Shown piece by piece: positions 3,825-30,677 of a stretch of 41,595 nt of DNA (the stretch's first letter is position 1; each line of letters opens with the position of its first letter). Source of the DNA: a virus; IMG/VR virus record IMGVR_UViG_3300025132_000092, positions 1 through 41,595 of that record. One strand, given 5' to 3'. Made by a program: the position numbers and the translations under genes. The notes under the pieces are model-generated. The model saw nothing but the letters and a program-made list of their open reading frames with translations. It was not told the DNA's origin and did not search any database.

Positions 3825-6023
3825 ATGTCCGTGAATACCGTCTTCAAAGGTGATTTGGTCGAGGTGACTCTCGGCAAGGAGACTGGACTCTATGGTCAGG
3901 GAACCGGCTCCAATTCCGGGAGTGGTGGGTGGGACACCACAAACGGCACAACGGACAATGCCTCCGTCATCAACGTGGGTGCTAATCTGTATTTCAAGGG
4001 CGAGGTGCCCAAGAATATGCTCGTCGGGGCGACGGTCAAGTTCTATTCGGCGGCAGGCAATTTCACCGCCGACCACTTCCCGACCACTAAGCGCACCTAC
4101 TACGTCACGGCGAACACCGACTCCACCATCACCATTCAACCGCGCCTTTCGACCGGCGTTGCGACGGGAGCCGCTGCCGATTACTTCATCGTGGAGGCAC
4201 TGCGCATCCCGACCATTGAAACGGCCATGACTTACGGGACACCTGACGATCGCGTGAAGACGGACCAATTCATCGGTTTGCTCAATTCGTTCGCTTTGCC
4301 CGAGCCTGAAATTGATGTGCGAAAGCAGCACATTGTTGGCATGGGGCGTGACGTGAACGTGCTCACAAGTGGCCGCGAAACGCTCAGTGGTGGATCGTTT
4401 GAGGTGAACGCTCACAACCTACGTTGGCTTCGCTATGGCCTCGGCGGTCACACCGCGCTTGGTTCCGGTGAGATGGCTCACCGCACCACAGGAACCACCA
4501 TTCTCACTGACGCCCCCCTTAACATCAAGGACGCGACGGCCACCTACCGTGGTCAGCAATACGGCAGCACCAACGCCGACGACATCAGCGAAGTGAGCGG
4601 AACCACCGCGACCGGCCTGTCGAACGTCGCTACCAATTCTGACTTTTTGCTCGGTGCAAAGACGGCTTCGGGGTCTTCCTCGACCATCAATCTCGCCGCG
4701 AGCAATTACAACGCAACGCACGAGAGTGTGGGAACCGCAGGTGTTTTCAAGACACTTTCTGCCGACGGTGCGAGCGTCCTGTATGGCTCTTACTCGGGAG
4801 CAAGCGGAACAACCCTGACCGGGGCCGACATTACGTCCGGTGCGCTCGCCCGTGTGCAGACCGCGGGTGCGGTTGCCTATCTGCTCGCTGAATTGAAGGC
4901 CGACATTTCGCATGGCGACATTCGCGTCAATGTCGGAAACACGATCGCCGGACGCCTATCCGTCGGAGAATACCTGCAAATTGTGGACAAGGACACCGTG
5001 CAAATCCCCGGTGCCGATGCTGAACTCCCCACCATCAACAAGCACGAAATCCGCCGTATCGTCGCAATTGGTTCTGCGGGCGGCAACGACCAAGCATACG
5101 TCTACGTTGAGGAACCGTTCTGCCTGACGCACACGGCTGCCTCCTGTGGCGTAGACCGCATCATCCTCACCCACGATTCGTCACAGGGTTCGACACGCCG
5201 TGGTAGCCCCGCGATTACGTCAAGCACCGGACAATTGCACTACGGCATCGAGCACACTTTCTACGGTGGCTCCGCGCTCCCTACATTCACCATTGAACAG
5301 TCTTTCCGTCGCACGGATGCTACACCCGGTGCTGACGCTCTCGTGCGTCTGTTCTCGGGATGCAAGGTGAACTCGCTGACCTGCACCGCCGACACTGAAG
5401 GAGAGTTCAAGGTCAGTGGCGACTACGAAGCCACACGCATGTTCACGGACACCGAAAGCAGGTTTGCTACCCCGCACCGCCTGTTTGAGAACACCGCCTC
5501 AACGAACATCACCCGTCGTTCGTCAGGAATTGCGGTGGGTGGCGAAAAACCATACCTGTTCCAACACATTACGTTCAGCGCGTTCGGCAGCCCTGTTTTG
5601 CGGGCAACCAACGTGGAGTTCCAAATGACCAATTCAAACACCGCTCGCTACTACATTCGCGGCACGGACGGCACCTACTCGTCCACCGATCAAGTCAGTG
5701 AAGCCGCCACGCAATACGCAACGGAGATTACGGAAGCGCAGCGTGAATACACGCTGAAGTTCCAAGCGATTGTCGAAGACGACCGCTTCTTTGAGGAATT
5801 GCGTCAGCGGAAGCACCACATCAATGAGAACGACATGACCCTCACCTTGTTCAAGCCGGGTTCGGCCTCGACCCGTCAGCGGGCTACCGTGACTCTTGAG
5901 GACTACACCGTAGTGAAGGCCGAGATGCCCGTTCCCGACGACAAAGGGCCGGTGACGGCTAACGTCGAATTGATTGTGCGCCACTTGAAGGTCACAGAAC
6001 ATAACCCCTATCCAATCCTATGA
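3825..6023 (+). CDS. Major tail tube protein, enlarged
   Basis: A 732-residue protein. A core tail tube pattern is visible in two parts. The first is around residues 140-210: PDDRVKTDQFIGLLNSFA, then PEIDVRKQHIVGMGRDVNVLTSGRE and GGSFEVNAHNLRWLRYGLGG. The second is residues ~480-735: LPTFTIEQSFRRTD, LVRLFSGCKVNSLTCTAD, GEFKVSGDYEA, then a C-terminal beta region. This corresponds to the archaeal/phage tube family in which a subunit-specific loop and 'folding of the polymer' strand alternate. Ordinary tube proteins are 150-350 residues; the surplus here is beta-rich insertions (residues ~45-125 and ~210-440) likely displayed on the outside of the tail. GTGAGTTGAAAAC precedes the ATG. The tape measure and chaperone genes follow in normal siphovirus order. 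Confidence 0.75.
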   Translation: MSVNTVFKGDLVEVTLGKETGLYGQGTGSNSGSGGWDTTNGTTDNASVINVGANLYFKGEVPKNMLVGATVKFYSAAGNFTADHFPTTKRTYYVTANTDSTITIQPRLSTGVATGAAADYFIVEALRIPTIETAMTYGTPDDRVKTDQFIGLLNSFALPEPEIDVRKQHIVGMGRDVNVLTSGRETLSGGSFEVNAHNLRWLRYGLGGHTALGSGEMAHRTTGTTILTDAPLNIKDATATYRGQQYGSTNADDISEVSGTTATGLSNVATNSDFLLGAKTASGSSSTINLAASNYNATHESVGTAGVFKTLSADGASVLYGSYSGASGTTLTGADITSGALARVQTAGAVAYLLAELKADISHGDIRVNVGNTIAGRLSVGEYLQIVDKDTVQIPGADAELPTINKHEIRRIVAIGSAGGNDQAYVYVEEPFCLTHTAASCGVDRIILTHDSSQGSTRRGSPAITSSTGQLHYGIEHTFYGGSALPTFTIEQSFRRTDATPGADALVRLFSGCKVNSLTCTADTEGEFKVSGDYEATRMFTDTESRFATPHRLFENTASTNITRRSSGIAVGGEKPYLFQHITFSAFGSPVLRATNVEFQMTNSNTARYYIRGTDGTYSSTDQVSEAATQYATEITEAQREYTLKFQAIVEDDRFFEELRQRKHHINENDMTLTLFKPGSASTRQRATVTLEDYTVVKAEMPVPDDKGPVTANVELIVRHLKVTEHNPYPIL

Positions 6024-6032
6024 GGTGAACAA

Positions 6033-6335
6033 ATGACTGAAGCGTTTCATGTAGCGTTCGGGGTCCTCAAGGAGATGACTCGGGAAGAGAGGATGGAGGC
6101 GAGCGGAGCCATGCCTACCCCCGGTCTTCGGGAAGAACACAAGCAATACTACGCTTTTTTGCTCGGTTTGGAAGAGTCGGGAGTTCCAATGACCATGATG
6201 CGATACGCCCCACATCTGATGCGACGGTTCCCTGAATTGGACGAACAAACGGCTATCGAAATCATCCAAGTCTTTTTCCAATACTACGATTACATCGACA
6301 TCGCCCTACGCGGCGATCGGGACGGACTGAGGTGA
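6033..6335 (+). CDS. Small helical protein, first of a tandem paralogous pair
   Basis: A 100-residue, helix-rich protein beginning MTEAFHVAFG, with a strong GAGGTGAACAA ribosome binding site. It shares a clear pattern with the next gene: EAF..AFG at the N-terminus, then REEHKQYYAFLLGLEESGV, a PHLM segment, then a helix with 'l.e.ta.e.i' and an aromatic-rich end (FFQYYDYIDIAL). This points to a tandem duplication. It lies between the tail tube gene and the tail chaperone/tape measure genes, so a role in tail assembly is likely, but no known family is recognised. Confidence 0.65.
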   Translation: MTEAFHVAFGVLKEMTREERMEASGAMPTPGLREEHKQYYAFLLGLEESGVPMTMMRYAPHLMRRFPELDEQTAIEIIQVFFQYYDYIDIALRGDRDGLR

Positions 6336-6339
6336 GAAA

Positions 6340-6576
6340 ATGAGCGAAGCGTTTGAAAGAGCATTCGGCACAATCCGAAAGGCCGGTCCTATCCGTGAGC
6401 AACACATGGATCATTATGCCTTCCTCTTCATGCTTCAGGAAAGTGGTGTGACGAACATGTTCGGGGCCGTCCCATATTTGATGGAGCACCAAGATTTGGG
6501 TGATCGCGAAGCAACAGAAGTGCTTGGGACGTGGATGGACAATTACGCTGAAATCAAGGCCATGATGGGCCGATGA
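6340..6576 (+). CDS. Small helical protein, second of a tandem paralogous pair
   Basis: A 78-residue protein starting MSEAFERAFG after AGGTGAGAAA, four bases from the previous stop. It aligns along its whole length with the 100-residue neighbour upstream: EAF..AFG, REQHMDHYAFLFMLQESGV, PYLM, then DREATEVLGTWMDNYAEI. The main difference is a deletion of about 15 residues near residue 15. The duplicated pair suggests a hetero-oligomer or two variants of one tail assembly factor. Function unknown. Confidence 0.65.
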   Translation: MSEAFERAFGTIRKAGPIREQHMDHYAFLFMLQESGVTNMFGAVPYLMEHQDLGDREATEVLGTWMDNYAEIKAMMGR

Positions 6577-6609: not shown

Positions 6610-6975
6610 ATGGTGAGGCTGACAGGGTGGATTACCGTCGAGGGGCGCAAGGTGCCGCTTGACTGGACTGTGACGGAAGAAGGAATTGTGAGCGCAAGCG
6701 TGCTCTCGGCTGCTGAAGTGAGTGTTCATCACGACGCACCGGCTCCTGAACCCGTGACCCTACCTGAGCCCGTCGAAGAAGCGACCTCCGAGGAAGAAGC
6801 GCCTGCGACCACCGACTACGAGAGCATGAACAAGACCGACCTCATGGTCCTGTGCAGCCAACGCGGCCTCTCGCAATCGGGAACAAAGGCGGAAATCATC
6901 GAACGGCTCGTGGCTGACGACGCGGCATCAACCTCCACCACGGAGGGTGAAGACGATGCCGACACAACCGAGTGA
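6610..6975 (+). CDS. SAP-domain protein with acidic linkers in the tail module
   Basis: A 121-residue protein in three parts. Residues 1-45 form a small beta-rich head (LTGWITVEGRKVPLDWTV). Residues ~46-75 are an acidic, Pro-rich linker (PAPEPVTLPEPVEEA). Residues ~78-105 form a SAP-type helix-turn-helix (MNKTDLMVLCSQRGL, then SGTKAEIIERLVADD), followed by an acidic tail. SAP motifs usually bind DNA, RNA or act as small protein-interaction helices; in virion genes they are seen on minor structural proteins. GTGAGATGA precedes the ATG. The 3' end overlaps the next gene by 20 bases, and the acidic tail codons also supply its GGAGGGTGA ribosome binding site. Confidence 0.7.
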   Translation: MVRLTGWITVEGRKVPLDWTVTEEGIVSASVLSAAEVSVHHDAPAPEPVTLPEPVEEATSEEEAPATTDYESMNKTDLMVLCSQRGLSQSGTKAEIIERLVADDAASTSTTEGEDDADTTE

Positions 6976-7315
6976 TTTCTACTTGAGTCCTGATACGACG
7001 ACGCAACACATGATCGATACACCGTTTGGTGAATTGCGAGTGTGGGTGCGCGAACTGACGTGGATTCAGCGGCAAAACGCCCTCACCCAATTTGTGTCGT
7101 TCAAGGCGAACGGTGACGGCGACCCCACGCCATCCATTGACTTCGGGGGCTATTGGTCCTACATGCTCACAAATTGCATTGAGCGAACGGAGCCTTCGCT
7201 CACGAAGGAGCAATTGCTCAACGTGCGACCGGAAGTCGGTGATGAACTGGCGAAAATCCTCCCGTCGTTTGATTCGCTCGTAAGCAGCCTTTCCGCGTCC
7301 GGCCCTTTGGGCTGA
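6956..7315 (+). CDS. Tail assembly chaperone, short (G-like) form
   Basis: A 119-residue protein located two frames before the tape measure gene, the standard place for the lambda G-type tail chaperone. ATG 6956 is chosen over the in-frame GTG 6947 because GGAGGGTGA (6942-6950) lies at the right distance. The sequence FGELRVWVRELTWIQRQNAL, then DFGGYWSYMLTNCIERTEPSL and PEVGDELAKILPSF, fits viral tail chaperones, which are small, charged and helical after a beta hairpin. The last codons contain a slippery heptamer (CCCTTTG, 7303-7309) immediately before the TGA. The alternative product would continue into the downstream frame as a fusion of about 229 residues. Confidence 0.75.
   Translation: MPTQPSDFYLSPDTTTQHMIDTPFGELRVWVRELTWIQRQNALTQFVSFKANGDGDPTPSIDFGGYWSYMLTNCIERTEPSLTKEQLLNVRPEVGDELAKILPSFDSLVSSLSASGPLG
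7303..7309 (+). other. Programmed -1 ribosomal frameshift site (slippery heptamer)
   Basis: In the reading frame of the upstream chaperone the bases are C CCT TTG, an exact X XXY YYZ slippery heptamer, followed by GGC and the TGA stop at 7313-7315. A one-base slip back gives CCC TTT and then GGG CTG ACG CTT, continuing without a stop into the downstream open frame to 7644. The position, four bases before the stop and inside the gene pair ahead of the tape measure gene, is that of the G/GT frameshift of long-tailed phages. A weak possible stem (AAGAC 7322-7326 with GTCTT 7341-7345) lies 12 bases downstream. Confidence 0.7.
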
Positions 7316-7644
7316 CGCTTGAAGACGTTCGGGCGTTCATGTCTTGGGACGGAAAAAGCGATCCTCCTATTTCACCACCAAAGATGGCCGTTTTGCTTGG
7401 AGCCGTCCCGACGTTTTTTCTCGGGCACTTCTTCCACTGCTCGCCCCATTCGTGGGACCATTTGCCCCCCGAACGAGTCATGCTTGACTACTATATGCTC
7501 TCCGTCTTCAAGGAAATGGAGGGCAAAGAGATGGACAGATTGAAGCGCGAACAGACCATGGGAGGAAACAAGGGGCGTGCGGTGAACACGACGAGCCATG
7601 TGGGGAGCGACTTCTTCGACACGATGAATGAACGGATGCGGTGA
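7309..7644 (+). CDS. Tail assembly chaperone, frameshift extension (T-like part of GT form)
   Basis: An open frame in the -1 phase relative to the preceding gene. It is open from 7273, and its first natural residues after the slip read GLTLEDVRAFMSWDG. The first ATG is 7339, but no ribosome binding site precedes it (GACGTTCGGGCGTTC), whereas almost every other gene here has one, so translation by frameshifting is the better reading. The extension adds 111 residues, with a hydrophobic middle (AVLLGAVPTFFLGHFF) and a charged helical end (MLSVFKEMEGKEMDRLKREQ). In the lambda system the T part recruits the tape measure protein. The stop lies 2 bases before the tape measure ATG. Confidence 0.7.
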   Translation, partial: GLTLEDVRAFMSWDGKSDPPISPPKMAVLLGAVPTFFLGHFFHCSPHSWDHLPPERVMLDYYMLSVFKEMEGKEMDRLKREQTMGGNKGRAVNTTSHVGSDFFDTMNERMR

Positions 7645-7646
7645 AA

Positions 7647-9110
7647 ATGGCGGACGGTAGCAAAACGATTCTCGGCGTGGATCAGTCCCTCCTTGACTTC
7701 GTTCAAACGCTGAATCAATACAACGATGTTCTCCTACGATTGCCCACAAAGCATCAAATCTTGATGAAGACGCTTGGGCCTTTATACACGACCTACCTCA
7801 AAATGGACATGGGTTTGAAGAGCGTAAGCAGCGTTATGACCAAGACCGATAAAGCCACAGGGAAATTGGCAAAGGCCACAAAATTGCTCGCCGTCCCTGC
7901 CGTCGTCGTCGCAGGCGCATTCACAAGCATTCTCAGCACCATGTTGCCGTTGCTTGGCATCGTATTCGGTGTCGTGGGCGGCCTCATGCTTCTCACGGCA
8001 GCGTTCGATCAAGGAGGGGGCTCTCTCCGAACTTGGTTGGAGGACATGCCCATTCTTGGTGAGATTTTCACTGTCGTGCAAACAGGAGCAGATGCCGTAA
8101 GAGCAGGGTTAAGCGGTGAGGGAGGTCCCTTTGGTGGTTTGATTGATGGGCTGAGATCTGTTGTGGCCTTCTACGCCGAGTTCTACACCATCGTGTTTCT
8201 CGGCTTAATGGATTTCATCACCATGCTTGCAGATTCAGGCATCTTCACGACGATTCTCGACGGCCTCACAACGGTTGGGGACGAAATCATGGGCCTTTGG
8301 ACGGTCATCCTCTCCATCTTTGGAGACGGGGGGACAGACGAGTTCTTCGCCAAATTGGAAACCCTGATTGGTTCCATTCTTGGTTGGTTGGAAGGTATCG
8401 GTATTTTCGACTACATCAACGCGATAGCCGAAGTCGGCTACGAACTGCTCGCAACCGTCATCTTCCTTGTTGCTCAAATCATCAAGGTCACGCTCGGCAT
8501 CATCCGCTTTCTCGCGCCTATCATCGCTCCATATGCGAAAATCCTCATCAATTACTTCGGCATTCTCTATTCGGTGTTTGTGGGGGTCGTCACCACCGCG
8601 CTGAAATTGATTGGTGCTGCATTGGCCGTCCTTCGTGGCGACTTCGGGCGGGCAAAGGAACTCATTACGGACATCGGGTCCGTTTGGGTGAACACGTTCA
8701 ACCGGGTGAAAATGTTCACGGAGAATATCTTCGCCGCCATCATGCAATACATCCAACCCGTGCTCGATGCGTTGAGCACCGTGGGTGACTTCGTAGGAGG
8801 GGCAGTGGGTGGTGTCGTAGGCGGCGCTACCGGCCTGCTTGGCTTCTCAAGCGGCGGCGTTGCGACCGGCCCGAAAAGTGGCTACGCGGTGGCTTTGCAC
8901 GGCACAGAAGCCGTCGTGCCTCTTCCCGATGGACGGTCTATTCCTGTGACGATTGAGAGCATGGGCGGGGGAGGCGGGGCTACCACCGTGAACATTAACG
9001 TCAGCGGGGCAAATGGCGATCCGCAACGTATTGCTCGTGCCGTAAGCGAAGAAGTGGGACGCTTGTTCCGTAGCCGTGCAAACAACGGCGGTATCAGCCG
9101 AGGGGTGTGA
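7647..9110 (+). CDS. Tape measure protein (short)
   Basis: A 487-residue protein. ATG 7647 is taken as start; an in-frame GTG at 7641 lies inside the GGTGA site. The N-terminus is helical (residues ~1-75), followed by very hydrophobic stretches at about residues 78-118 and 260-330 typical of tape measures, which span the tail lumen and insert in the membrane. The C-terminus has the familiar tail-lysis-free ending: GLLGFSSGGVATGPKSGYAV then HGTEAVVPLPDGR, Gly-rich linker and a TTVNINVSG strand. No lysozyme or peptidase motif is seen. With the usual ~0.15 nm per residue the length would predict a tube of roughly 70-75 nm. It lies directly after the chaperone pair. Confidence 0.85.
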   Translation: MADGSKTILGVDQSLLDFVQTLNQYNDVLLRLPTKHQILMKTLGPLYTTYLKMDMGLKSVSSVMTKTDKATGKLAKATKLLAVPAVVVAGAFTSILSTMLPLLGIVFGVVGGLMLLTAAFDQGGGSLRTWLEDMPILGEIFTVVQTGADAVRAGLSGEGGPFGGLIDGLRSVVAFYAEFYTIVFLGLMDFITMLADSGIFTTILDGLTTVGDEIMGLWTVILSIFGDGGTDEFFAKLETLIGSILGWLEGIGIFDYINAIAEVGYELLATVIFLVAQIIKVTLGIIRFLAPIIAPYAKILINYFGILYSVFVGVVTTALKLIGAALAVLRGDFGRAKELITDIGSVWVNTFNRVKMFTENIFAAIMQYIQPVLDALSTVGDFVGGAVGGVVGGATGLLGFSSGGVATGPKSGYAVALHGTEAVVPLPDGRSIPVTIESMGGGGGATTVNINVSGANGDPQRIARAVSEEVGRLFRSRANNGGISRGV

Positions 9111-13300: not shown

Positions 13301-13815
13301 CCACAGATGGCGACTGGTCATTTTACGTCGCTTTGACCCCCGCATACGAGGACCACGACGTGCTCGGCCTTATCCATTCAGAAGGGAACGATGGGCTGCA
13401 AATCCGTGCCGACGGCAGCGGCGTTTTGACTGGAACAACCGCAATCGCCGGACAGGCTGCGGTAAATGGAACAGTCAGACCCGACGCAGGAAAGCCATCG
13501 CTTATCGCAGTGCGCATTGACGAGTCTGCCGCGAAGGCGTATTGGCTCACGCGAAGCGATAGAGGGAGCAGCAGCAGCACGGCTACTGCTGCTTGGGCTT
13601 CAACTAACCCGTTGGTTTTGGACAATATCGTGGCTCAAACGGGCGGTATGGAATTGTTCGGTGAAATGACCGACGCCGGTTCGGGGCAAAACGCTTTGAC
13701 GAACATGGCGCAGAACGGCCTCATCGTCCACGAAGTGCTCATTTATCCGAAGTTCCTGAGCGATACTGAGCACGCTGACGTGATGCAGTGGTTTGAGGAC
13801 CGATTCGGGGTGTGA
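10372..13815 (+). CDS. Large baseplate/tail-tip protein with several LamG/concanavalin-like domains
   Basis: A 1147-residue protein. ATG 10372, just after the previous stop, is preferred over an in-frame GTG at 10261 that would overlap the previous gene by 110 bases. At least three LamG-like segments are visible. The first is at residues ~70-230 (AFTIEAFVVPDHGGVVV to FLGGQGGEYRGVIESVRVSRG). The second is at ~707-950 (SGLALWLRADSLAATLSDGD, WNDESGNNRHVL, VQFDGGDSLAM, ending GHVAEVLHYDRVLTAAEIG). The third is at ~980-1147. A weaker fourth start is LLVWLDSSDKTV near residue 548. These sandwich folds bind carbohydrate or protein, so a receptor-facing baseplate role is inferred. The stop overlaps the ribosome binding site of the next gene. 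Confidence 0.7.
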   Translation: MPIRTIYSKAVRLNGFSDGMVVPTGAFRESGVDMFAADHSEKTGATNKVSSYESDDPKMGRKHFPMEGNALNNMVGAFTIEAFVVPDHGGVVVHKPDCFTLKVGTPFAPGPAVFEVTTRDAAGNITGERLSTSRNFPQTTETWGTYADGSSKPHDLALPSRELLYLNAQFTSSRMLLYINGDLVGKHDFNGDDRLIRTASSDLFLGGQGGEYRGVIESVRVSRGTIEPQMQPFTATGETVGLWDFEDEDDIPDLYFFNNRNPAHPQQGKDGVGKAEDGLMPVPMVCIGYDFRNVEVGGAGITNPLTLTEGYNYGTFKIRDFPTGVAGTERPTALELLASTILAIPVNELRFQSWWDSGHLDISSVVTKATYHSDGIPVTNLNAVVNASGTNPVTGGSVSPFTYYRETSTAPYSPEGGINLDPMVNPIERVRIVAIDFTNDNVVIQSTLLRSDTNAPKTQGFLFGHPDNTPVWFTLGNADLVVDPGKAEARPRGQMTRARFSQNQRFTDRTGLGNDAYWISTKSRMTEAMRDKTTAVGGMSYAYEPPHGDDLLVWLDSSDKTVLLRDDGSAVVTNDEFVFWWKNKARIGPNTDSGEIGETVAQNDFHFYSWGNGWRWKQNCGRANNRAGLVAAGPTEAILHPSGGYSWPGGTPTVKSGVVIPNYPSGVTYYDGSSWVNGVGKAASEENRVNYPTGLNIEPIHTGMAPIKSGLALWLRADSLAATLSDGDSVSQWNDESGNNRHVLQGTSSSQPTYRASPTGYNDRPAVQFDGGDSLAMAAFDAGMNTNEFTSFVVTSPSVDNATYEGIVSAREGSGTPARQGFNLYADMTGTGNRYEFWFGRDSSFGATQALSGSAVLNQATMVRIGVSGGDGAGATATTSISVDGATTVTGSHAYYKQTSAGGGEPYSIGIVPSIYMLDGHVAEVLHYDRVLTAAEIGVVERYLTAKYGITHATGLSAYPQSIYTLWDDGATEGAATTDGDWSFYVALTPAYEDHDVLGLIHSEGNDGLQIRADGSGVLTGTTAIAGQAAVNGTVRPDAGKPSLIAVRIDESAAKAYWLTRSDRGSSSSTATAAWASTNPLVLDNIVAQTGGMELFGEMTDAGSGQNALTNMAQNGLIVHEVLIYPKFLSDTEHADVMQWFEDRFGV

Positions 13816-13817
13816 CC

Positions 13818-16800
13818 ATGACGGCGATGACGGAAGCCATCGTGCTCACGGGCTTTGGTATTGACCAAGCGTCAGCCATTACTCAACTCAACGCCATGCT
13901 TGACGCAATCGCTCGTGGTGATCCGGTAGTCACCGTCCCCGCCTTCCCCGGCTATGTCGGGCCAATCACAATCGCCACGGGAGAGCAGGCAGAGAGCCTG
14001 TGGGCTGCGGTTCGTCGGATGGTCACTAATGGTGGTGTGTCGGGTGGCACGCTCACCACAAACGTGCTCGCACAATTCGCGTCTAACCCCGCAGCCCCTC
14101 CTTCTGCGACCCTTACCGATTTTGATGTCTACTTGACGCAGCCTGTCTATAACGCAGGAGTCCCGCCACTTTCAGTCGGTGATGTTCTCGCCGCCTTCAG
14201 CGGTGTCCCATCCATCACGACATATGGTAGCGGCAACCCACCCGCTACGGGAACTGAGTTTGGACTCATTACCGGCGAATTGGGAGACGTAAGCGACGAT
14301 ATGCCCGGTATGAGCGGCCTGACGACGTATAATCGCGTCGAGGGTCACTTCTTCCTGAAGAGTCTACCCGAGCCAAAATTGGAGAGTGTCACGCGCACCG
14401 TGCAGGGACTCGCAGATCGCTTTGAGTCACAATTCACCGACCCCGGCGTTGGCTCCATGCTGAAGCCGAATGAGCGTGTTCGGGTCACGGAAACGGTCTT
14501 TCAAGGTGAAATGCTGAGCGTGCAGACCCAATCACGGATAGCCACCTACACCGCATCGGGTGTTGCGAAGCACGCCATCGTTGCACAAGGTGGGGACTCG
14601 TTCAATGACACAACATACGGGAACGTGGCTTCATCATCCCAAGACACCATGGTAGCCGTCGCGGTTGAGGACATTCGCCTCTTTGCATTGAAGGGACTCG
14701 ACACTGACGAGGAAGCCTTGTTTGACCTTGTGAACCCAACCAAGCCGACGAACGAGAACTACGTCCGCCACCTGACCCCTGAGTCCGAAACTCGTGTTGC
14801 CGTATTGGAAACACCACAGGCACTTCGGGATGCAGGCGGGCCCCCGAAGATTCTGATTTACTACGACGCCATCGACCTGACCGGCGAAGTCGTGGCCGGT
14901 TGGAAAGGCAAATCGTGGTTCACCGCGGCCAACCACGCTCAGACTTACCGCAACGACATGGACGCAATCACCACCATGAGCAAAAAGGGGTGGTTGGTGG
15001 TGAAGCGCACAGTTCCCGACACCAATGCGGTGTTCGTAGACACTTCGGCGGGCTATCCAATTTATCGAAGTGTGCTCGATTGGCTACGCAGGCCATACAC
15101 TGCGTCCCAATTCTCTTCGCCGCCTTCATGGGATCCGATGACCATTCACGCTCCCGGTGGCCTCATCACCATACCCGCAAAAGAACTGCGCGGCGAACGA
15201 CATAGCCATTGGATGAGGGCGAATCCGACGGGTGATTTGACGGGTTCGCCGTTCGTGAATGTGGAGGATTGTGCCCACACCGTCATTCAGGAAACAATCG
15301 CGGGCTCACGGCATAGAAATGACGCTTATGGGCCACCACGAGCCCTTCCAAACACACGCAGCCCCGTTGAGAAGAGCGAATCGGCCTATCACACGCTCTC
15401 GATTCGCGCATCTACGGGCGAAGACGTTTCGGGGGGCTCGTCCACGCTCTCCACGCTGCAACCCGTGAATCTTGAGCAATTCGACATCATCGATAACCTC
15501 ATCGAAGCAGACCGCCACCTGCTTCTCATCCATCCGTCGAACAGGGAGCGGGCAAAGACGCTCTCAACGCTCCGCACCAAGCAAGATTCACCCACCAATT
15601 ACCACGAATGTTCCATCGAACTGTCCCTGATGCGGGCGCGGGTGGAGGAAATCGCACCGTCGAGCGGTGAAATGCAGGGCGGCGTCGTTCTGCGCGGTCG
15701 TTCTCAACTGCTCGACATCAATGACCGCCTTTCCGAGCGTGACTTCGACCTCAACGAAGGCCACCCACTGAAGGAAATTGGCGACCTCGGCACACCCACC
15801 GTCAGCGTCACGCTTGGCGGTCTTGGGCAGGGTGGAATTGACGTTGCAGCCGACCGCACCGAGCATTCGTTTTTGCCGGTTTGGAAAGATCGTGTGGTCG
15901 GCACGGGAAATCCGTCCGTGCGCAACGATCGGCAGACTTCGACCTACTATGCCTCAACACGAGCCTTGGTTGAGTTGCCCCTGTTCCCATCGACGTTCTT
16001 TGACATTGAGCAACGGCTTCCGAGCAGCACGAACAAGCGTAGCCCGAATGCCTCCGACCGTAGCATGGAGTTCGTAGTGGATTGCACCATGACCGCATCC
16101 AACAGGCCGCAAATGGGACGTTATGAAAACCGTTGGTCCATTGATTGGGGGCTGCGTGATGGCGTGTCTGCCCTGCGCATTCACGACTACGCCGCAGTGG
16201 TCGGGAAAACGCGCGTGCGATTCATGCGGGACAATGCAGCGACGTTCGCTACGGGCGTGAGCAGTGGGACCACGTTTAACGCGACATACATCGAAGTCGA
16301 TAGCATCAACCCATTCATCAACGAAGGTGGGTTTGACGCGCCTGCTGAGTCGAGCGGCGTCCGCACGTTTGCGGCGGCTGCGGACCACACAGGCGCATTC
16401 ACCCCATCTTCGGAGGCTTTCGTCGTGACTGTCGGTGAAGGCATCCTCAGTGATGGGGGCATCCGTCTGCACGTCTATAAAACCGAAGTTTCGGGAAGCA
16501 GCCACCGCCTGTATTTCGACGCATTTCACGATTGGTCGGATGAGAACGCTACTCTTTCAGCGGTCAAAACGGCCATCACTTACGGTATGCCGGTTGTGAT
16601 GGGAGCATGGCTCTCTGATACGCAAGAAGATGGGAACGTGTGGCCCTTGAGCGAACTCAAAGTGTCTGCGGGCACGTCAAACGCCACCATGGCTCAGAAC
16701 TTTGTGGACCCGATGCGCTACACGATGGCGTTTGGGCGCATGGCGGATTCAAAGACGGCTATTTCCATCGACCCCGAAGACGAGGCAACCCTGCTCATTC

Positions 16801-19361
16801 GCAACGGCCCAACCATGGAAGGTTTCGTTTTCGATCCAGCCAACCACCTGTTTAGCGACGACGACTTCCCGCTCCAAGCCCCCGTTGAATGCCGCACCGG
16901 CTACCTTTCGCTGAAAGGCAAGCGGAGCGACGGCACGCTCGACTACGTTCGCCCCCTACGCCTTAATGCAGGCGACATCGCTTCTTCGGGCAATGTCAGC
17001 AATTTCAAAGAAGCGGTGCATGAGTTCATTCGACGCATCAATCAAGCAGGGCATCCCAACGCGAGCAATACGGCAGGTGGAAGTGCCTTCAACCCACCCC
17101 AATTGTTCACCACAAGTGACGGAACAGAAACCGTTTCGTCGTCGGACACTGGTTCGCACATGGGATATGTCCGAGCCTTCCTCGGTGGTGAGGTGGAAAG
17201 CAGGGACGGTGAAGGCGGCTTGTCTGTCGTCATCCATTCCACCATTCCCGGTGCAACGGGACGCAATTTCGCCGTGTGGATGCACAACCATTCTCTATAT
17301 CCATACCGCCCCGTTCAAGCGGTCGGTCACGGTGGGCTGCTCGCCACCAATAGTCGGTCCTATCAGGCATCGTCTTTCCCTGCCCCTCTTCCCGTCGGCA
17401 TGGACGGCGAAACGCACATTCCGATTACTACATTTCAGGGCGGAGTTCATGGACGTGTGCAAGATGATGCAGGGGGTCTGCGGACATATGCGGGTATTGG
17501 TGGTCAAACCGTGCTCAAGACCGTGCGCGGAGCACGCCGTTTCAACAACATAGCGTGGCCGAATTACGACAGTCGCGCTTTCCCACATTTGGCGGTTGAA
17601 AGGTCAGTCATGGATCTCATCACACGCATGGGCCGACGTATCACCGAGGAAAGCCCCGGCTACATTTTGGTGAATGATTCACTGTTCGGCACCTTCACTG
17701 ACATTGGCGGTGGTATTGGGGCGACTGACTGTATGACGGAGGGCCCCGGTGCCTGTGCCTTCCTTCTCAACGTGCAACCGCTTGAAGGCGTTGCGAAACA
17801 ATGGACGGAGCAGTTCGTGAACAACGAAGGAGAAAGTGTCGAGGCTTCTGTTCGCATCCTCTACCCACTGCCCGACGCTCACGGCATTCTGTTCTTTGGA
17901 GGTGGGCACACCGGCACCGTCTTTGACATCAGCGACGGCACCGCCAACGATTACTCCGACTTCTACACCCACCACTACTCACAGGGGCCGAGCGGTTATG
18001 CGGGCTTTCAAAATCTTGAGGAAGTGCAAACATCTGCCGCCGTTCTCGACTTCACCCAAGTGCGCAATAGGGACACCGTGAAAGACAACACCTATCGAGG
18101 GCTACACGGTGTGATGACCGTTCCTATTTCCAACGTGAGCCCAACTCTTGCCTTCACCCCCTCTCGCTCGTGTATCTTTTATCTCCGCCTCAACGAAAGC
18201 GCAATCAACAACGTGGCGCTTGGAGCAGGAAAAGAACTTGTGCTTGAAACACTGCATGACCGAAAGGCGCTCGCACGCGGGACGTTTGCGAGCACCATGT
18301 CGTCACCTGCGCCTTTATCCGGCGATCCTGAAAGTGCAGGTGTTGATTTTGCAGCGTCCACGGACGCGGGTATTGCTCTCCACACCATTCAAAGTGAAGG
18401 GGGGCAAATTGCCCGTTTGCTTGTTCCCGGCGTCGATAATGCTCAGGGAAGCGGCGCAACGGGGAACTACACCATTTCATTCTTTTTCAGCGCAGAACCG
18501 AACGTGGGCCCTTGGTCAAGTCAAGGCTACGGCAACGGTCCGGTCATCCATGGAATTGACCAAAACGGTGCAGGCTACGGTATTTCGATTGAAACGAAAC
18601 AAGGAACAAACCCCGCAGTGATGGATATTGCCATCATCGCTCGCGTCAGGACCGCTTTAGGAGTTGACCACGACGAACGACTAACCCTTACCGATCAACC
18701 AAAGAATGGTTGGTATCACGTCATTTACGCGCGTTTGGCGGGTTCGGGTGGAGCCCTTTACGTCAATGGTGCTCTTGTGTCCGCCACACCGCTTGTTCCT
18801 GCGGCAAACGCCGACTTGGTAGATCAGGGCTCATATAACGCCGGAACAATCGCCAACACCCCTCATTTGCCACAAGGCGTGGGAGTCGGGACACTTTCGG
18901 CCTCCGGCGTTCTTGTGAACAAAGGCGGCGGCTACACCGCAGGAAGCACGTCGAGCATTGTCGTGGACACTGTGGCTGCATCTTCGCACTTCTCGGTGGG
19001 CGACCACATCTTCACCAACGCGGGAGTCCTTCTCGGTGAAGTGCTCTCGTTGACTGACACGAACATCACCCTGACTCGCCCCATCCTCGCCGCATTGGCA
19101 AACAATGAGAACTTGAAGAAGTCAGGTGCCCTGAGCAGTGGATTTTACGGACGTGACGTGAACATGCTCACTGTCGGCATGGCTTTGCACACCGTCACAC
19201 CAACCGCCGGATTCTACTACGGAAAGCATCACGGTGGTGCATCGAACGCCTATGACCCCATCTATTTCAATGGGGCCTTGTCGGAAATCGCTATGTGGGA
19301 CCATACCTTCGATGCAACAGAGGCCGCCAACCTCTACAACGCTCGGACGGTGTGGGACTAA
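13818..19361 (+). CDS. Giant baseplate/tail-tip protein, LamG at C-terminus
   Basis: An 1847-residue protein. ATG 13818 follows GGGGTGTGACC; the in-frame GTG 13812 is a less likely start. Most of the chain is unrecognised beta-rich sequence without membrane segments. The last ~300 residues (from about 18,460) form a LamG-type sandwich (NYTISFFFSAEP, KNGWYHVIYARLAGSGGALYVNG, then YFNGALSEIAMWDHTFDATEA). This sandwich is split by a ~65-residue beta-module at 18,933-19,128. The final TAA shares its last base with the ATG of the next gene. Location between two other giant tail genes points to the tail tip or side fibres. No enzyme motif was found. Confidence 0.65.
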   Translation: MTAMTEAIVLTGFGIDQASAITQLNAMLDAIARGDPVVTVPAFPGYVGPITIATGEQAESLWAAVRRMVTNGGVSGGTLTTNVLAQFASNPAAPPSATLTDFDVYLTQPVYNAGVPPLSVGDVLAAFSGVPSITTYGSGNPPATGTEFGLITGELGDVSDDMPGMSGLTTYNRVEGHFFLKSLPEPKLESVTRTVQGLADRFESQFTDPGVGSMLKPNERVRVTETVFQGEMLSVQTQSRIATYTASGVAKHAIVAQGGDSFNDTTYGNVASSSQDTMVAVAVEDIRLFALKGLDTDEEALFDLVNPTKPTNENYVRHLTPESETRVAVLETPQALRDAGGPPKILIYYDAIDLTGEVVAGWKGKSWFTAANHAQTYRNDMDAITTMSKKGWLVVKRTVPDTNAVFVDTSAGYPIYRSVLDWLRRPYTASQFSSPPSWDPMTIHAPGGLITIPAKELRGERHSHWMRANPTGDLTGSPFVNVEDCAHTVIQETIAGSRHRNDAYGPPRALPNTRSPVEKSESAYHTLSIRASTGEDVSGGSSTLSTLQPVNLEQFDIIDNLIEADRHLLLIHPSNRERAKTLSTLRTKQDSPTNYHECSIELSLMRARVEEIAPSSGEMQGGVVLRGRSQLLDINDRLSERDFDLNEGHPLKEIGDLGTPTVSVTLGGLGQGGIDVAADRTEHSFLPVWKDRVVGTGNPSVRNDRQTSTYYASTRALVELPLFPSTFFDIEQRLPSSTNKRSPNASDRSMEFVVDCTMTASNRPQMGRYENRWSIDWGLRDGVSALRIHDYAAVVGKTRVRFMRDNAATFATGVSSGTTFNATYIEVDSINPFINEGGFDAPAESSGVRTFAAAADHTGAFTPSSEAFVVTVGEGILSDGGIRLHVYKTEVSGSSHRLYFDAFHDWSDENATLSAVKTAITYGMPVVMGAWLSDTQEDGNVWPLSELKVSAGTSNATMAQNFVDPMRYTMAFGRMADSKTAISIDPEDEATLLIRNGPTMEGFVFDPANHLFSDDDFPLQAPVECRTGYLSLKGKRSDGTLDYVRPLRLNAGDIASSGNVSNFKEAVHEFIRRINQAGHPNASNTAGGSAFNPPQLFTTSDGTETVSSSDTGSHMGYVRAFLGGEVESRDGEGGLSVVIHSTIPGATGRNFAVWMHNHSLYPYRPVQAVGHGGLLATNSRSYQASSFPAPLPVGMDGETHIPITTFQGGVHGRVQDDAGGLRTYAGIGGQTVLKTVRGARRFNNIAWPNYDSRAFPHLAVERSVMDLITRMGRRITEESPGYILVNDSLFGTFTDIGGGIGATDCMTEGPGACAFLLNVQPLEGVAKQWTEQFVNNEGESVEASVRILYPLPDAHGILFFGGGHTGTVFDISDGTANDYSDFYTHHYSQGPSGYAGFQNLEEVQTSAAVLDFTQVRNRDTVKDNTYRGLHGVMTVPISNVSPTLAFTPSRSCIFYLRLNESAINNVALGAGKELVLETLHDRKALARGTFASTMSSPAPLSGDPESAGVDFAASTDAGIALHTIQSEGGQIARLLVPGVDNAQGSGATGNYTISFFFSAEPNVGPWSSQGYGNGPVIHGIDQNGAGYGISIETKQGTNPAVMDIAIIARVRTALGVDHDERLTLTDQPKNGWYHVIYARLAGSGGALYVNGALVSATPLVPAANADLVDQGSYNAGTIANTPHLPQGVGVGTLSASGVLVNKGGGYTAGSTSSIVVDTVAASSHFSVGDHIFTNAGVLLGEVLSLTDTNITLTRPILAALANNENLKKSGALSSGFYGRDVNMLTVGMALHTVTPTAGFYYGKHHGGASNAYDPIYFNGALSEIAMWDHTFDATEAANLYNARTVWD
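18933..19128 (+). repeat. Recurring virion beta-module, copy inside a LamG domain
   Basis: The encoded segment reads YTAGSTSSIVVD, then FSVGDHIFTNAGVLLGEV, then TNITLTRPIL. It shares order and spacing with segments at 19,826-20,052 and 27,371-27,570: a TAGST start, a VGD-like turn, a glycine-led strand and an I/V-TL strand. It interrupts the LamG-like domain that ends the 1847-residue protein. Similarity is at protein level; no long nucleotide identity is visible. Confidence 0.5.
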
Positions 19362-22300
19362 TGGTGATTCGGACTTATCCTCAGCGGGAATATCCCGCCG
19401 ATCGTCGGACTTTCGGGTCCGATGAAGGGAGGCCCGCGAGCGGATATTTTAGTCTACACTTCACCTACCCCGATACCGAATACGATGACGCCACGGTAGT
19501 GACGTGGGCAGGTGGTTCATCGGCCAACGACCTTGGAATGCACTTTCTCGTTCGCACGCCCCTTGCGACGAGCAGCGCACCTGCAAACACAGACAATTTT
19601 TTCGTCATTGATTTGAAGACCGCGGGATTCAACCTTGGAACTGAAAGCGCGGCTCGGATGATTGCTGCCGCTATCAATTCGTCCCGTGACCACCAAACAG
19701 GGGCGCACAGTCGTGGGCGCTACCTGCGAGCGAAATACCAACGCATGAGCGGCAAAGCATCCTACACCGGAAAGAACGTCAATTCCAACAGACTGTCCAC
19801 TGGCGATCTGAAAACCACGAGCGACTACACCGCGGGAAGCACCAACACCCTGTCACTTACCCAAGTCCCGGTCCCTGCGAATTACGAATACTACGTTGGT
19901 GACTCGCTTTACACGGCGGGGGCCAATTCGCGCTACATCGGGACCATTCGGGACGTGTATTCGGGCGCAAACCCGTGGACGGTGGTTCTCGATGCGCCTA
20001 TCGCAATCGACCTCCCCTCAAACACCCTCATTCGCAACGACAGGCTTCACCTCAATTTTCAAACCGTCACTGATGTGCCGACGCACCACCTACCCACCGA
20101 CATTCCACAACAGGGGACCATCACTGACTCATCGGGCAACACCCTGCGGTATGATGGGTGGTCGATTGTGCAGACGTTCACGTTCGATAACCCCACGACA
20201 CAGGGTGGTGAAATTGTGTTCCGTGTGGTGGACTACGATACGGCAGCAAACATCACCGGAACTGCATCATTCACGATTAACAACGAGGTGGAGCAGCAAC
20301 ACACTGTTGTGGTGACGTGGGAAAGTGACACGCCAACCGGCGGTGGGTATTGGGGAACGGCAAACGGCGGCCCTATCATTCAGGGGCTCGGTGCGCCTAT
20401 TCCCGTGTGGCACATGGCGGCTAAGCCGATGGACGGGGGCAACATGGGCTTGCCGGACGTTGGGCACGAATCACGGGGTGCTCAACCTTCTGCGCTTAGC
20501 GGGCATGGCTACTCGCGCTTTAGCATCGAAGGGCTCAATTCGTGCTATCTTCCGTCGCTACCACCGCCTGATATGCCCTTTGATGGGCCATCTATCATGG
20601 GTGAAGCCGCCGCCGACCCGTTCCAATGGACCGGCCTCAACGATCAGCGAAATGCCGTCGAAAGTGATGAACTGCTCATTGAGGAACCCGAGTTCGGTGT
20701 CCGAATGGACGACCGGAACGTGATTACCACGGATTGCATCGTGAGCACGAACAACGCATCGGGCCTCGGCGTCGGAACCACCGAGGTGAAGGTGTTGGCC
20801 CCCAACACTGATTTCCGAACACATTTCGATGTAGGGGATGTCATTTACTCGTCTGAGGGGGAGGCAATCGGCACCATCAGCGCAATTGAGGAAACGCATG
20901 ACACGTCGTTTGACGTGTTGGGTCCGCGCGAAAGGGACAGTGGTTGGCTCTGCAATACATCCACGAGCACTTCAACCCCGAACCTTCCGGTGGACAAAGA
21001 CCCTACTTCCGATCCTTCACCTTGGGCCGTGGGTGATGTGGTATTGGACGAAAGAGGGCACGAATACGGAATCATTTCCGCCTTTGCCTCATTCCAAATC
21101 ACCCTCAGTGCCAATCTGACGAAGAACATAGCCGCCGGAACGCGCCTATATCGTCGTCAAGCCCTAACAACACCCGCCTCTTCGGGCCTTGCATATACGC
21201 AAGAAGACTTCGATGACGGGCGGCAGGTTTTGCTCTATAACGCAGGAGGTCTGAACATCACAGACAAGGAATCGTTTGGTGATGGAACGTCATTTGACTC
21301 CTACGCGACCGACAATCACCCACGACTCATGGTCAGCGATGCGGGGGACAAATATGCAAAAATCACCCTTCCTACCGCCTACACCGGCCTTGCTTTGTCC
21401 GGCAATTTTGGGACCATGAAGGTCACGAACTTCTATGGTGAAATCCCTGCAAATCAAAGCATTTACCGCGCCTGCGTCAAAATCACCATCAGCAGCAGCA
21501 CCATTGTTCTCAGGAATGGTCAGTCGCTTTTCAAGGCCCCACCCAACGCCGATTGGGCGGTGGCGTTGGAGAATGGGCACCAAATACCGGGACGATTCGC
21601 CACGTTCTCCAATGCTCATGATGAACGACATGCTCAGATGGGCAATCTACGCGCATCGTCGGTCAATGCCGCAAAAGCAGTGGGGAAGTTCGGGCTAAAA
21701 AGCGAAAAGGCGACTATCACCACCGCATCAGATTCATTCACTGGTGCGCAGGGCTATGTTTGCCGCCCATTCCGAACCACTCGCACGGTGAACACAGAAC
21801 GGGTGCGCGGCCTCATCATCCCTAACGAGGAAATGGTGTGGGAAAACCTGTCCGTTGTTGATGATAAGGGGCAGGAACTTGTGCTTCAGGGTGGGTCGCC
21901 ATTCGGAACGGTCATCAAGGATTACACACACAATGCGAATCGGGTCAATCCCGCAACCGGCACTGAAACGCCCCTCCCGTCCACTGTCGGAAGCGGGGTT
22001 GATTCCAATCTTAGCATCAATCTGCCTTCGCAGGACGCCATTCCGGGGAACATTCTCGTTCGCTCCGGTCACGATCGTGTGCAGGCGTGGAGCAATCTGT
22101 CGTGGGGGATGGGTGGCCTAAGCGCACCCACCACCGAAGAAGCCGGTGTCCGAGAAGCCAACAACCAAACCACGTCGTTCGACACACACGACCGCGTTCT
22201 CCATTTCCACCCCGTTCGCATTTTGCATGACGACATGGCGTCCAAGTTTGGGCTGACCCCCAACACCACACCCGGTGCCGTCCCAAGTGGGACAACGCGC

Positions 22301-25300
22301 CTGTATGCCGCCCATCGCTTGAGCGATCATACGGAGCGTGGTTCTGTCCTCAAGGAAACGCAAAATGGGGTTGAACAAACCTACACCCATCCGCACCACC
22401 GCATCCGCTTTGGTCGGCAGGGACACCACTTCATCACACCACTGACCACAAGAGGGACACCGAAAGCCCTCCGCCGACAACTGCACCGTTCGCACGGTTC
22501 GGCCTACACCCTACTCTTTGAGGCTGAATCTGAGCACAAGCATTGGGGCTTTCAGTCAGTCTATAACGGCGGTAGTGCCCCACCATCCTCCACGCTCTAC
22601 TACCTCGACTCTTTGGAAGTCAAGAGCGAGACATACAACACTGGCTCATTTGCTTCCGACGGCTTTCCAATGGGTGAAATCGAAGGACGGGGCCTTCCAA
22701 ATTGGCGTCGTTATGACGGCACTGCGCCACAGGAACAAATCGACGTTCTCTTTGCGCCGGGTCAAGTCCACACGAAGGTGGAAGGTGCAACCGAGCAGGC
22801 GCGTTGGGTTAGCGCATACACCGGCAAAGATGGGAGCGGTCCATATTCGGCTGCACTGACGCAGGGGCCCGTTTCCATTCAAGTTTCAGTCGCTCGGACG
22901 GTGAACAACCGACACAATGCAGGCGAAGAGTTCGCGCTCAATGGATTCATGGTCAGCAACTACCTGTTGATGGGTGGTCGTCCTCCGCCCGCATGGGTAG
23001 ACCATGCTCATGAGGATTCGGGCAGTGACCCCTTCGTCTATTCCACAATGGGGCTTGCTCCGGGTTGGCGCACACCCCGCGTAGCGACTGAAATTGCCAC
23101 TGTGCCTCCGCTGCTCACCCATGACCCCGATTTGGTGAATGCCTCAGCCGTCCCTGTGGCGAGCGACGATACGGGTTCATCATTCAACGCGACTGATGCG
23201 CACCAAGACCTCGCGTTGCTTGGACCATCTGACACGAACTCAGGGGCTACCCCCGATGCCTTCCTTTGCACATGGACCGCCGAATATGCACATCCTGCCT
23301 TGCTCGGCACAGTCCGCGAGCAATACATGACGTTCAGATACCGACAGGCGGGAATGCCCAATGCCGTTCAGCAACCCTCAGTGCGTGGCCTATATCTCCG
23401 CAACGCTCACGAAACCGCTTCGTCGGGTATCGATCACGGGATGGCCTTTGAGCGAATTTACGCATTCCAATGGCTTCAGCAATACGGCTACAACGGCCTG
23501 AACGCAGGCGGTCACGGGACCAATTGGGGCCAAAGAGCCGCAGGTGCGGTTCTCATGGGTCATTCGGGGTTGCGTGAGGCGAACGGCACGCTTGAACTTC
23601 TTCCGCAATTCACCACAACCGGTGAGTCGCATCGTTTCAGCCGTGGTGAAGGTATTGGTGATGGACTGAGCCCCCGAAAGGTCCCAACCCGTCGTGTGCT
23701 CGACAGTGATGGGACACAGGATTGGAACGTGGTCGTGGCCGTCCATGACCCCCTCGTCGCCATCGATTGGAGTCGTCGTCTTCCCGTCCGCGCATTTGGC
23801 TTCCGCAACGCCAGTGACGCATTGAACATGCTCGCAGGCGATCCTGCCGAAACATCTACCTCAATGGACGCTATTCTTCGCTCGGCTCGATTTGACGGCG
23901 GCAAGCACGATTCTCTGAATGACCTGCCGACGGGTGGAGATTGGCCGTGGGCTACGGGAACGACATACACGGGTGTTGAGCGAACGGCACCTATTGGCTT
24001 CGTCGTCAGTCAGCAGACGAACGAAGCACATGATGGGCAGGGTTTCAACCGCCTGTCGAATGCCCCGTGGGCGCAGGGCGAACGTCGCGTGGGCATGGGG
24101 CGTGTGCTTCAGCACGAAATGCTCGGTGTTGTGAACCCACGAGCCATGCCCGCAGGGCTCATGGATGCGCACAGGACCGAGTTCGCCACCATCACGGGCT
24201 CAAGTGCTAAGTTCATGGAAGCGAAGTCCGTGAATACTGGCTCGGACCCCATCATCGGACTGAACCACCATTCGGGGGACAAAGCAAAGGCTGCTGATTC
24301 GGTGGAAGCGGTGCTCCAAGCATCCGAGTTCGGGGCCTCAGTGGGCAGTGAGTTCTACCATCACAAAGGCTCCAATCTCCATCTCAACGCCCACCCCGTG
24401 GATGTGAAAACGGCCACCCAAGAGCACTTCCCCGCCGTTGGATGGGGAACGAGCAAAAACATGCCCGACACTACCCAAGCCGAACGAGGAACGCTGCCCA
24501 TCCCACTGCACGAAATTGCAGACCACAGGCAGGTTCAGTCAGATTTGTCCCCGCGTCTTGGCCTGAATGTCGAAACGGAAACGGAGCGTTCAGAAGGGCG
24601 CAACACCGACTACATGGTGACGAGCACCAAAGCCGTGTCCCTGCATTCGGACCTCGCGGTTGGTCAAATCTTCCCCATCACGCCTTCATGGGTCCAAGAA
24701 ACACGTTGGACCAAAACAGGGGCGTCGAAGGGCAGCATCACAACCACTGCGGCTCGCCCCAACGAAACCTACGGTGGCCGGTCCGACCCTAACCAACGCA
24801 ACGCCAAACCCAAGTGGACGTTGAACGAGGACACTGACCTCTCAGCCCTTTCCAACCCCTTCAGTGACGATATTCAGCAAGCCAATGGTGCAGGCATCCG
24901 TGACCATTGGGCCGTGCGCGGATCAGCGGACCTGCCCCCATGGGGCGGTGTGTTCATTCTGCGCAAAACGTGGCTTGAGCGGCGTGAAGAAGGCGACCTT
25001 CTCCGAACAAGGCAGGGTGGGACAAACGCCACTGCAAAGGCGCAAATCGCGCAGCCTGTTCGCCGTTATGCTGACTACATCGTGCGCATGGTTCGCCCCT
25101 TGAAGGTGTTCGGCTACACCTCCGAAAACGATTCGGACGGAACCCTGATGAATCAGGATGGGTGGTTGCTCGGACCATACGCAACCATCACTGAAGCAGG
25201 GTCGAAGGACCAACCGTTCACCCGCGACAAGCGGTATGGGATGTTTGAATCTTCGACCAATTCGCAAGGAGGGGACATTCAGGGCATTTCATCTCCCTAC

Positions 25301-29492: not shown

Positions 29493-30677
29493 TCAGAACA
29501 GTTTCGACTGTGTGTCTGTTGGGATATTGCGCGTAGCGATAACCTCGACCTGTGGATTTTTGTTGCCCTTCGGCTTACGCATCCATGGGTGGATGGTGTA
29601 GCCGTATTCCTTCATGGCGTCGATGTAATCATCCAAAGGCTGCAAAGTGTTCTTGTCGTAGAGGTAGTTCGACAAAATGACCGGCCCCTCGTGCTCAGCA
29701 CCAATCCTTAGCGTTTCCATTTGCAGATCGTCGAGGGTTTTTCCTGCTCCCTGTTCATCCGAGCCACCATAATTGATATCGCGGCTGATGTAAGGTGGGT
29801 CGAGATAAAGCAGGTGCTCGTCCGTCAGGTGACGAGCCGTATCAGTGATACTGCCGGTGTGAATATCCACGTTGGCGAGTCTTTCCGCATACGGTCCGTA
29901 ATCAAGCGAACCTACCTCCCAAGGCATCACGCGATAATTGCTTCCGGTTCCGGCTCGGCGGAATGAGGGCTTCTTGATGCGGCCTTCTGTGTAGCCCGCC
30001 GTTTCGCTTCCCCAAGGCTCGTATTGGAACAAACCGTTGCGTTGCTGAAGATTTGTGCCGAGCAACAGACGTGCGAGTTCCTGCGATTGATGACCTGCGA
30101 GTCTTTGCCCGTCCACGTCGCGCCGTTCCCGCAATTCGTTCATGCGATCTACCATTCCCTGCATTTCTTCGGGGTCGCCGGGAAAGCGCACTTCCCCAAT
30201 GCCCTGTTTGAGATTCTGCATGAGGTTTGTGAGGTCGGGGTTGATGTCAGCATACAGGCCGCGAGCCTGTGGGTCATTCATGCCGAAAATGAATGAGCCG
30301 CTGCCGCCAAACAATTCAGCAGGTATGAAGTCGCCATCGAGTTCCTGTCGGATGCCTCGCAAGTGAGGCATGATGAGAGTCTTCCCACCAATCCAATTCA
30401 GCGGGGCCGGAAGCATGTTGCCTTCGGGGTTGGCGAATCCCTGAAGGTCCGAAAATCCAATTCCTTTATCGCGCACGGCTTTCCAAGGAACCTTCGTCGT
30501 TTTCCCCTCCTTCCACGGAAGAGAGGGCAATTGTGTTCCGGGCTTGTATTGGCTCAAAAGAGATTGGATTTCGGGGTCTGCTTCCCTGATGTCGGAAAAG
30601 GCCCTACCTCCCCATACGCCCGATTTCAAGACGGACCACCCGCCCGTCATAGCCTCGGTGTGGCCCCACACGTTCAT
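29493..30677 (-). CDS. D12-class (Dam-like) DNA adenine N6-methyltransferase
   Basis: A 394-residue protein that transfers methyl from S-adenosylmethionine to adenine in DNA. The family order is clear: NWIGGK (residues 94-99), ELFGGSGSF (121-129, cofactor loop), ADINPDL (143-149) and the catalytic DPPY (293-296). Between these lies a target-recognition region. Compared with typical Dam enzymes (260-300 residues, NWxGGK near the start) there is an extra N-terminal segment of about 90 residues with tryptophans (GGWSVLKSGVWGGRAF). The last five residues are QSKLF, resembling a clamp-binding peptide. It is the last gene of the replication block. The recognised site cannot be told from sequence; protection from host restriction is a usual role. 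Confidence 0.85.
   Translation of the reverse strand: MNVWGHTEAMTGGWSVLKSGVWGGRAFSDIREADPEIQSLLSQYKPGTQLPSLPWKEGKTTKVPWKAVRDKGIGFSDLQGFANPEGNMLPAPLNWIGGKTLIMPHLRGIRQELDGDFIPAELFGGSGSFIFGMNDPQARGLYADINPDLTNLMQNLKQGIGEVRFPGDPEEMQGMVDRMNELRERRDVDGQRLAGHQSQELARLLLGTNLQQRNGLFQYEPWGSETAGYTEGRIKKPSFRRAGTGSNYRVMPWEVGSLDYGPYAERLANVDIHTGSITDTARHLTDEHLLYLDPPYISRDINYGGSDEQGAGKTLDDLQMETLRIGAEHEGPVILSNYLYDKNTLQPLDDYIDAMKEYGYTIHPWMRKPKGNKNPQVEVIATRNIPTDTQSKLF
29498..29511. terminator. Short UUCG hairpin at the convergent gene junction (weak)
   Basis: ACAGT-TTCG-ACTGT forms a five-base-pair stem with a UUCG tetraloop in + strand RNA. It begins 21 bases after the end of the last + strand gene and lies within the 3' end of the facing methyltransferase gene. 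There is no run of T after it, so a factor-independent terminator is uncertain. It may only slow or protect the 3' ends of the converging transcripts. Confidence 0.25.

Follow-up and report, generated by a model that had tools for sequence, protein, structure and literature searches.

Frameshifting in tail assembly chaperone genes is well known in bacterial viruses, and the locus studied here raises the question of whether the two overlapping chaperone frames of a tailed virus with a very probably archaeal, marine host are joined in the same manner, or whether the second frame is a gene of its own, a fragment of a broken gene or the result of slippage during transcription. The window, meaning the whole stretch of 41,595 nucleotides that was analysed (IMG/VR record IMGVR_UViG_3300025132_000092), almost certainly carries in its tail module, judging from its sequence and from that of its relatives, a programmed -1 ribosomal frameshift like that of lambda G/GT.

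Slip site and reading frames at the junction

The junction is made up of the following features.

6942..6950, + strand: Shine-Dalgarno sequence GGAGGGTGA of the zero-frame chaperone, seen in the sequence 5 nt before the ATG at 6956
6956..7315, + strand: predicted zero-frame product, a gpG-like tail assembly chaperone of 119 aa that ends at TGA 7313-7315; matches to phrog_25860, HCTV-2 gp40 and HHTV-2
7303..7309, + strand: slippery heptamer C_CCU_UUG, seen in the sequence and identical in 63/63 distinct homologous junctions
7313..7315, + strand: zero-frame stop TGA, one codon past the heptamer, at the same place in 63/63 junctions
7309..7644, + strand: predicted -1-frame C-terminal extension (gpT-like) that adds 111 aa past the slip and ends at TGA 7642-7644; an open frame with -1 homologues in 63 distinct junctions and conservation from PFG onwards

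The zero-frame codons read GGC CCT TTG GGC TGA, which places an exact C CCT TTG in frame at 7303-7309, as the initial annotation had stated. Its claims of a -1 frame open from 7273 to 7644 and of a fusion of about 229 residues hold as well: the frame opens after the TGA at 7270-7272 and runs from 7273 to the TGA at 7642-7644, and the predicted product measures 118 + 111 = 229 residues. The only -1-frame start before the conserved part is the ATG at 7339, where no Shine-Dalgarno match was found, in agreement with the claim that the downstream frame has no ribosome binding site before its first ATG. Where the window has GGAGGGTGA, most relatives have a sequence of the GGTGA type.

The window contains 5 copies of CCCTTTG, where chance predicts 5.95, and at such a frequency the motif alone proves nothing; its count was therefore rejected as evidence for frameshifting. 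In-frame X_XXY_YYZ sites amount to 0.29% of codons, corresponding to about 0.04 expected in the 13-codon overlap, and in frame within the main genes of the window CCCTTTG is found once, at 7303-7309. A second heptamer, TTTGGGC (7306-7312), overlaps the first and is not conserved among relatives. In E. coli, C_CC.U_UU.G is one of the motifs at which -1 frameshifting in vivo exceeded 0.10% with no stimulator present (PMC4066793).

Conservation of the junction in relatives

Three proteins served as queries against IMG/VR (the tail tube and the products of the zero and -1 frames), and the loci recovered were collapsed to 63 distinct junctions. Since these queries relied on protein similarity and the heptamer was not used, relatives lacking CCCTTTG could have been found. 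The initial annotation had proposed that the heptamer and the frame relation should be conserved in related viral genomes, and this is what we observed: all 63 distinct junctions have CCCTTTG and a second frame at -1, and in each of them exactly one codon, a GNN, separates the heptamer from the zero-frame stop. The stop is constant in place and varies in identity (TAA in 57, TGA in 4 and TAG in 2); that of the window is TGA, while nearly all relatives use TAA. Among the IMG/VR loci, no relative was found in which the heptamer was lost with both frames kept and a good ribosome binding site before the second, which had been named as contrary evidence, nor any with one continuous frame. Thus, a heptamer that is weak evidence by its chance frequency becomes a settled observation by its conservation in relatives.

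Within the first set, 33 of 62 junctions were less than 80% identical to each other, and in these genes CCT accounts for 33% of Pro codons and TTG for 27% of Leu codons. As judged from these sequences, the invariance of the heptamer far exceeds codon drift; we attach no formal probability to it, given the common descent of the junctions and the constraint that each frame places on the other. In the aligned relatives, the T frame is conserved from P-F-G onwards, and these three residues, encoded by CCC TTT GGN, are invariant. A fused -1 protein alone would let the third bases of CCN and TTY vary, and neither does. A two-frame coding constraint on PL/PFG alone could freeze the eight bases, and such a constraint already implies that both frames are translated.

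The alternative that fares best is a separate gene starting at ATG 7339, reached by ribosomes that re-initiate once they have terminated in the zero frame, or used as a weak start. This ATG lies 23 nt past the zero-frame stop and an in-frame ATG at codon 13 is found in several close relatives as well; however, it comes without a ribosome binding site, and the 12 codons preceding it are also conserved, including the invariant PFG. The T start is itself not conserved, the first possible one wandering from codon 4 to codon 114 across the junctions. No -1-frame start was present upstream of CCC in the 62 junctions checked, and in four junctions (L086, L089, L091 and L107) a -1-frame stop stands immediately before CCC. 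The extreme case is L178:420-788, where the first ATG, GTG or TTG of the 123-codon T frame comes at codon 114, so that T could hardly be translated except via the zero frame. The absence of an upstream start, the wandering first start and L178 together mean that independent translation of T is not a general option; the second frame, on this comparison, is in general not startable on its own, and a separate gene is very improbable.

Equally, one gene broken through an error of sequencing or assembly, or by a real disabling mutation, would account for adjacent frames that jointly encode one conserved protein. However, the 63 distinct junctions, drawn from many independent metagenomes, all show a -1 break at one identical base, and a stop that is conserved in place but varied in identity speaks against either error or disabling mutation. 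This conservation of the break across the 63 junctions refutes the split gene, to which we assign next to no probability.

RNA structure around the slip site

One further feature was located by its folding z directly downstream of the slip site.

7315..7336, + strand: candidate stimulatory hairpin with a 9-bp stem and a GACG loop, separated from the heptamer by a 5-nt spacer

In the window, the folding z is -3.4 for 7315-7339 and -2.2 for 7310-7365. Across 33 divergent relatives it peaks sharply 5 nt past the heptamer (mean -2.2, with 55% below -2), compared with about -0.8 to +0.1 away from the site in the same relatives, and the first helix mostly starts 6-7 nt downstream of the heptamer. 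Folding downstream is also stronger than in T frames recoded with synonymous codons (mean z -2.0). Most lineages carry some stem downstream of the heptamer, lineage by lineage. A single conserved stem was considered and rejected: RNAalifold gave no common stem for one group and a weak one for that of the window, and the pairs differ between lineages.

A Shine-Dalgarno-like stretch upstream of the heptamer is strong in most relatives, with a mean of -8.0 vs -3.2 kcal/mol in controls. As an internal Shine-Dalgarno, an optional stimulator of the bacterial type, it may or may not play a part: the window lacks it and synonymous recoding reproduces its strength, so that in the relatives it may simply follow from a Gly-rich linker.

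Transcriptional slippage would likewise yield two products from one gene, but it is known to require long homopolymers, the runs at the slip site are merely CCC and TTT, and downstream RNA structure at a spacing of 6-7 nt fits ribosomes, which leaves this last explanation with a negligible probability.

The chaperone and its neighbours in the tail module

A programmed -1 ribosomal frameshift of this type would be expected to serve a tail assembly chaperone, and such an identity, put forward in the initial annotation, is supported by Foldseek, PHROG and HCTV-2 matches. The zero-frame protein matched phrog_25860 (tail assembly chaperone, E 4e-4) and, by hhalign, HCTV-2 gp40 (E 2e-6); the phrog_25860 profile has the length of HCTV-2 gp41 (322 aa), so these two matches are perhaps not independent of each other, whereas the fold match is. 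Its AlphaFold model (mean pLDDT 74) matched the HHTV-2 chaperone in Foldseek (E 9e-7), as well as chaperones of Bacillus phages and FS-gp41 of phage Mu; a PDB fold search with the same model gave no match. For the T part, neither homology to the HCTV-2 T part nor a known fold in the viral library was detected, and a direct search against named phages gave no match.

The flanking tail genes are as follows.

3825..6023, + strand: tail tube protein, 732 aa, from the family-alignment hhalign match to HCTV-2 gp39 and its place before the chaperone pair
7647..9110, + strand: tail tape measure protein, 487 aa, matching phrog_58 (E 2e-11) and other tape-measure families

The alignment of the tube family matched HCTV-2 gp39, which is annotated as Tail Tube, with an hhalign probability of 95% and an E-value of 4e-8. 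The order of tube, chaperone pair and tape measure that had been described is therefore present and recurs in relatives, yet tube and chaperone are not adjacent, as three small ORFs (starting at 6033, 6340 and 6610) lie between them. The first two, at 6033-6335 and 6340-6576 (+), are neighbours sharing 34% identity, a local duplication. The third, at 6610-6975 (+), encodes a SAP-domain protein (PF02037, E 1e-8), overlaps the chaperone start and is conserved in relatives; a putative nucleic-acid-binding domain of this kind is odd inside a tail module. Downstream of the tail module lie two very long ORFs on the + strand, 13812-19361 (1849 aa) and 19295-27619 (2774 aa), which may encode tail fibres or adhesins; the 1849-aa ORF had no PHROG match. 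In one relative (L044:8994-10500) the tape measure is split between two frames, probably through an assembly or sequencing error.

Virus family and host

An archaeal-type virus had been suggested, and the gene content agrees with it. The best full-length matches of the family B polymerase of the window are haloarchaeal viruses, the window encodes an ERCC4/Hef-like nuclease and a PD-(D/E)XK nuclease, and its structural and replication modules run in opposed directions. Two DNA methyltransferases, of the D12 class and the N6_N4 type, are found in the replication module at 29493-30677 and 35211-36680 (-). An archaeal host is well supported by these sequence features, and Poseidoniales are the likely host.

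PolB, an ERCC4-type nuclease, a PD-(D/E)XK nuclease and opposed modules make up the gene content described for magroviruses (PMC12999244, PMC10160649). The window has all four in common with Magrovirales (viruses of Poseidoniales, among them Aoguangviridae and Apasviridae), as judged from these published descriptions, and its predicted gene content thus fits magroviruses. An aoguangvirid genome also carries a labelled tail assembly chaperone (PMC12999244, PMC10160649, PMC10768690). Nevertheless, Aoguangviridae are described with PCNA and GroEL/GroES (PMC10768690), whereas among the 20 relatives examined PCNA was found in 0/20 and TFIIB at sub-threshold level only; a PF00118 (Cpn60/TCP1) chaperonin was present in 14/20, and the three that were typed are group II thermosome subunits rather than GroEL. 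The chaperonin-bearing relatives include L200, L202 and L203. Two scans of genome contigs for relatives in cellular genomes found none.

Proposed mechanism

The sequence elements of the junction, their conservation, the frame relation and the homologies are established. From these, and by analogy, we infer that slippage occurs, how efficient it is and which roles G and GT have in assembly. Most ribosomes would stay in the zero frame, terminate at 7313 and release chaperone G with its 119 residues. In a minority held up by the hairpin beginning 5 nt downstream of the heptamer, tRNA-Pro and tRNA-Leu would move back by one base from CCU UUG to pair with CCC UUU, and translation would continue in the -1 frame, giving a 229-residue G-T fusion with the junction ...SASGPL/GLTLEDVR... 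A tandem slip would leave the junction peptide ILPSFDSLVSSLSASGPLGLTLEDVR, and a slip before UUG decoding would place F instead of the junction L. By analogy with lambda, G and GT would coat the tape measure while T recruits tube subunits.

Perhaps, although we consider this doubtful, the arrangement is a fixed cassette in marine archaeal viruses, composed of C_CCU_UUG-GNN-stop and a stem-loop about 6 nt downstream and tuned to the archaeal ribosome, in which the invariant heptamer and the stop one codon on would both belong to the signal and keep the G:GT ratio constant. If this is true, it would contrast with bacterial phages, whose slip site varies freely. The comparative data set is of value here, as slip site, stop spacing and downstream RNA structure all look selected, and with these data from one family it becomes a directly testable question whether archaeal and bacterial ribosomes share a -1 signal. 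For annotation, the chaperone pair in dozens of marine archaeal virus genomes can be treated as one frameshifted gene.

Comparison with known systems

The remark in the initial annotation that frameshifting is rarely documented for archaeal viruses is right, yet precedents exist in HVTV-1, HCTV-1, -2 and -5 and HSTV-2. A 2021 review counts one reported -1 case in an archaeal cellular gene and a handful predicted in haloarchaeal viruses (PMC8211752). In the reviews PMC8211752 and PMC5009743, -1 frameshifts are predicted in the chaperone genes of HVTV-1, HCTV-1, HCTV-2 and HCTV-5, and a +1 frameshift in HSTV-2; as described in those reviews, HVTV-1, HCTV-1, HCTV-5 and HSTV-2 have the same gene pair with the same inferred purpose as the window. 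The -1 sites given there for HCTV-1 and -5 are G_GGA_AAC and G_GGA_AAG, whereas dozens of divergent genomes in the marine family all use a single heptamer. A literature search, with several primary papers outside its scope, found no report of CCCTTTG in an archaeal virus and none of frameshifting linked to Poseidoniales; the papers on Aoguangviridae and Apasviridae (PMC12999244, PMC10160649, PMC10768690) report no frameshift. What is already known is therefore the predicted -1 frameshift in HVTV-1 and HCTV-1/2/5, and what would be new is an unusually well-conserved case with a heptamer that we did not find reported for archaea; it appears to be among the best sequence-supported cases of a tail-chaperone frameshift in archaeal viruses.

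HCTV-2 (Saparoviridae, host Haloarcula californiae) likewise has the order of tube, chaperone pair and tape measure, and its gp40/gp41 chaperone is already annotated as a joined -1 frameshift product. In both viruses a stop lies right at the slip site, directly after the heptamer in HCTV-2 and one codon on in the window, but the heptamer is A_AAA_AAC in the former and C_CCU_UUG in the latter. Close overall relatedness to Saparoviridae, as represented by HCTV-2, was not found: the homology is remote and confined to tube and chaperone, the T part being not detectably related.

With the type of lambda G/GT and phage Mu FS-gp41, the window shares the place before the tape measure, the overlapping -1 frames and an X_XXY_YYZ site near the end of the first frame. 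As in that type, the long fusion would be the putative minor product, and the predicted chaperone fold is similar to that of Mu FS-gp41. It differs from lambda in its very probably archaeal host, in the heptamer C_CCU_UUG and in a candidate stem-loop downstream.
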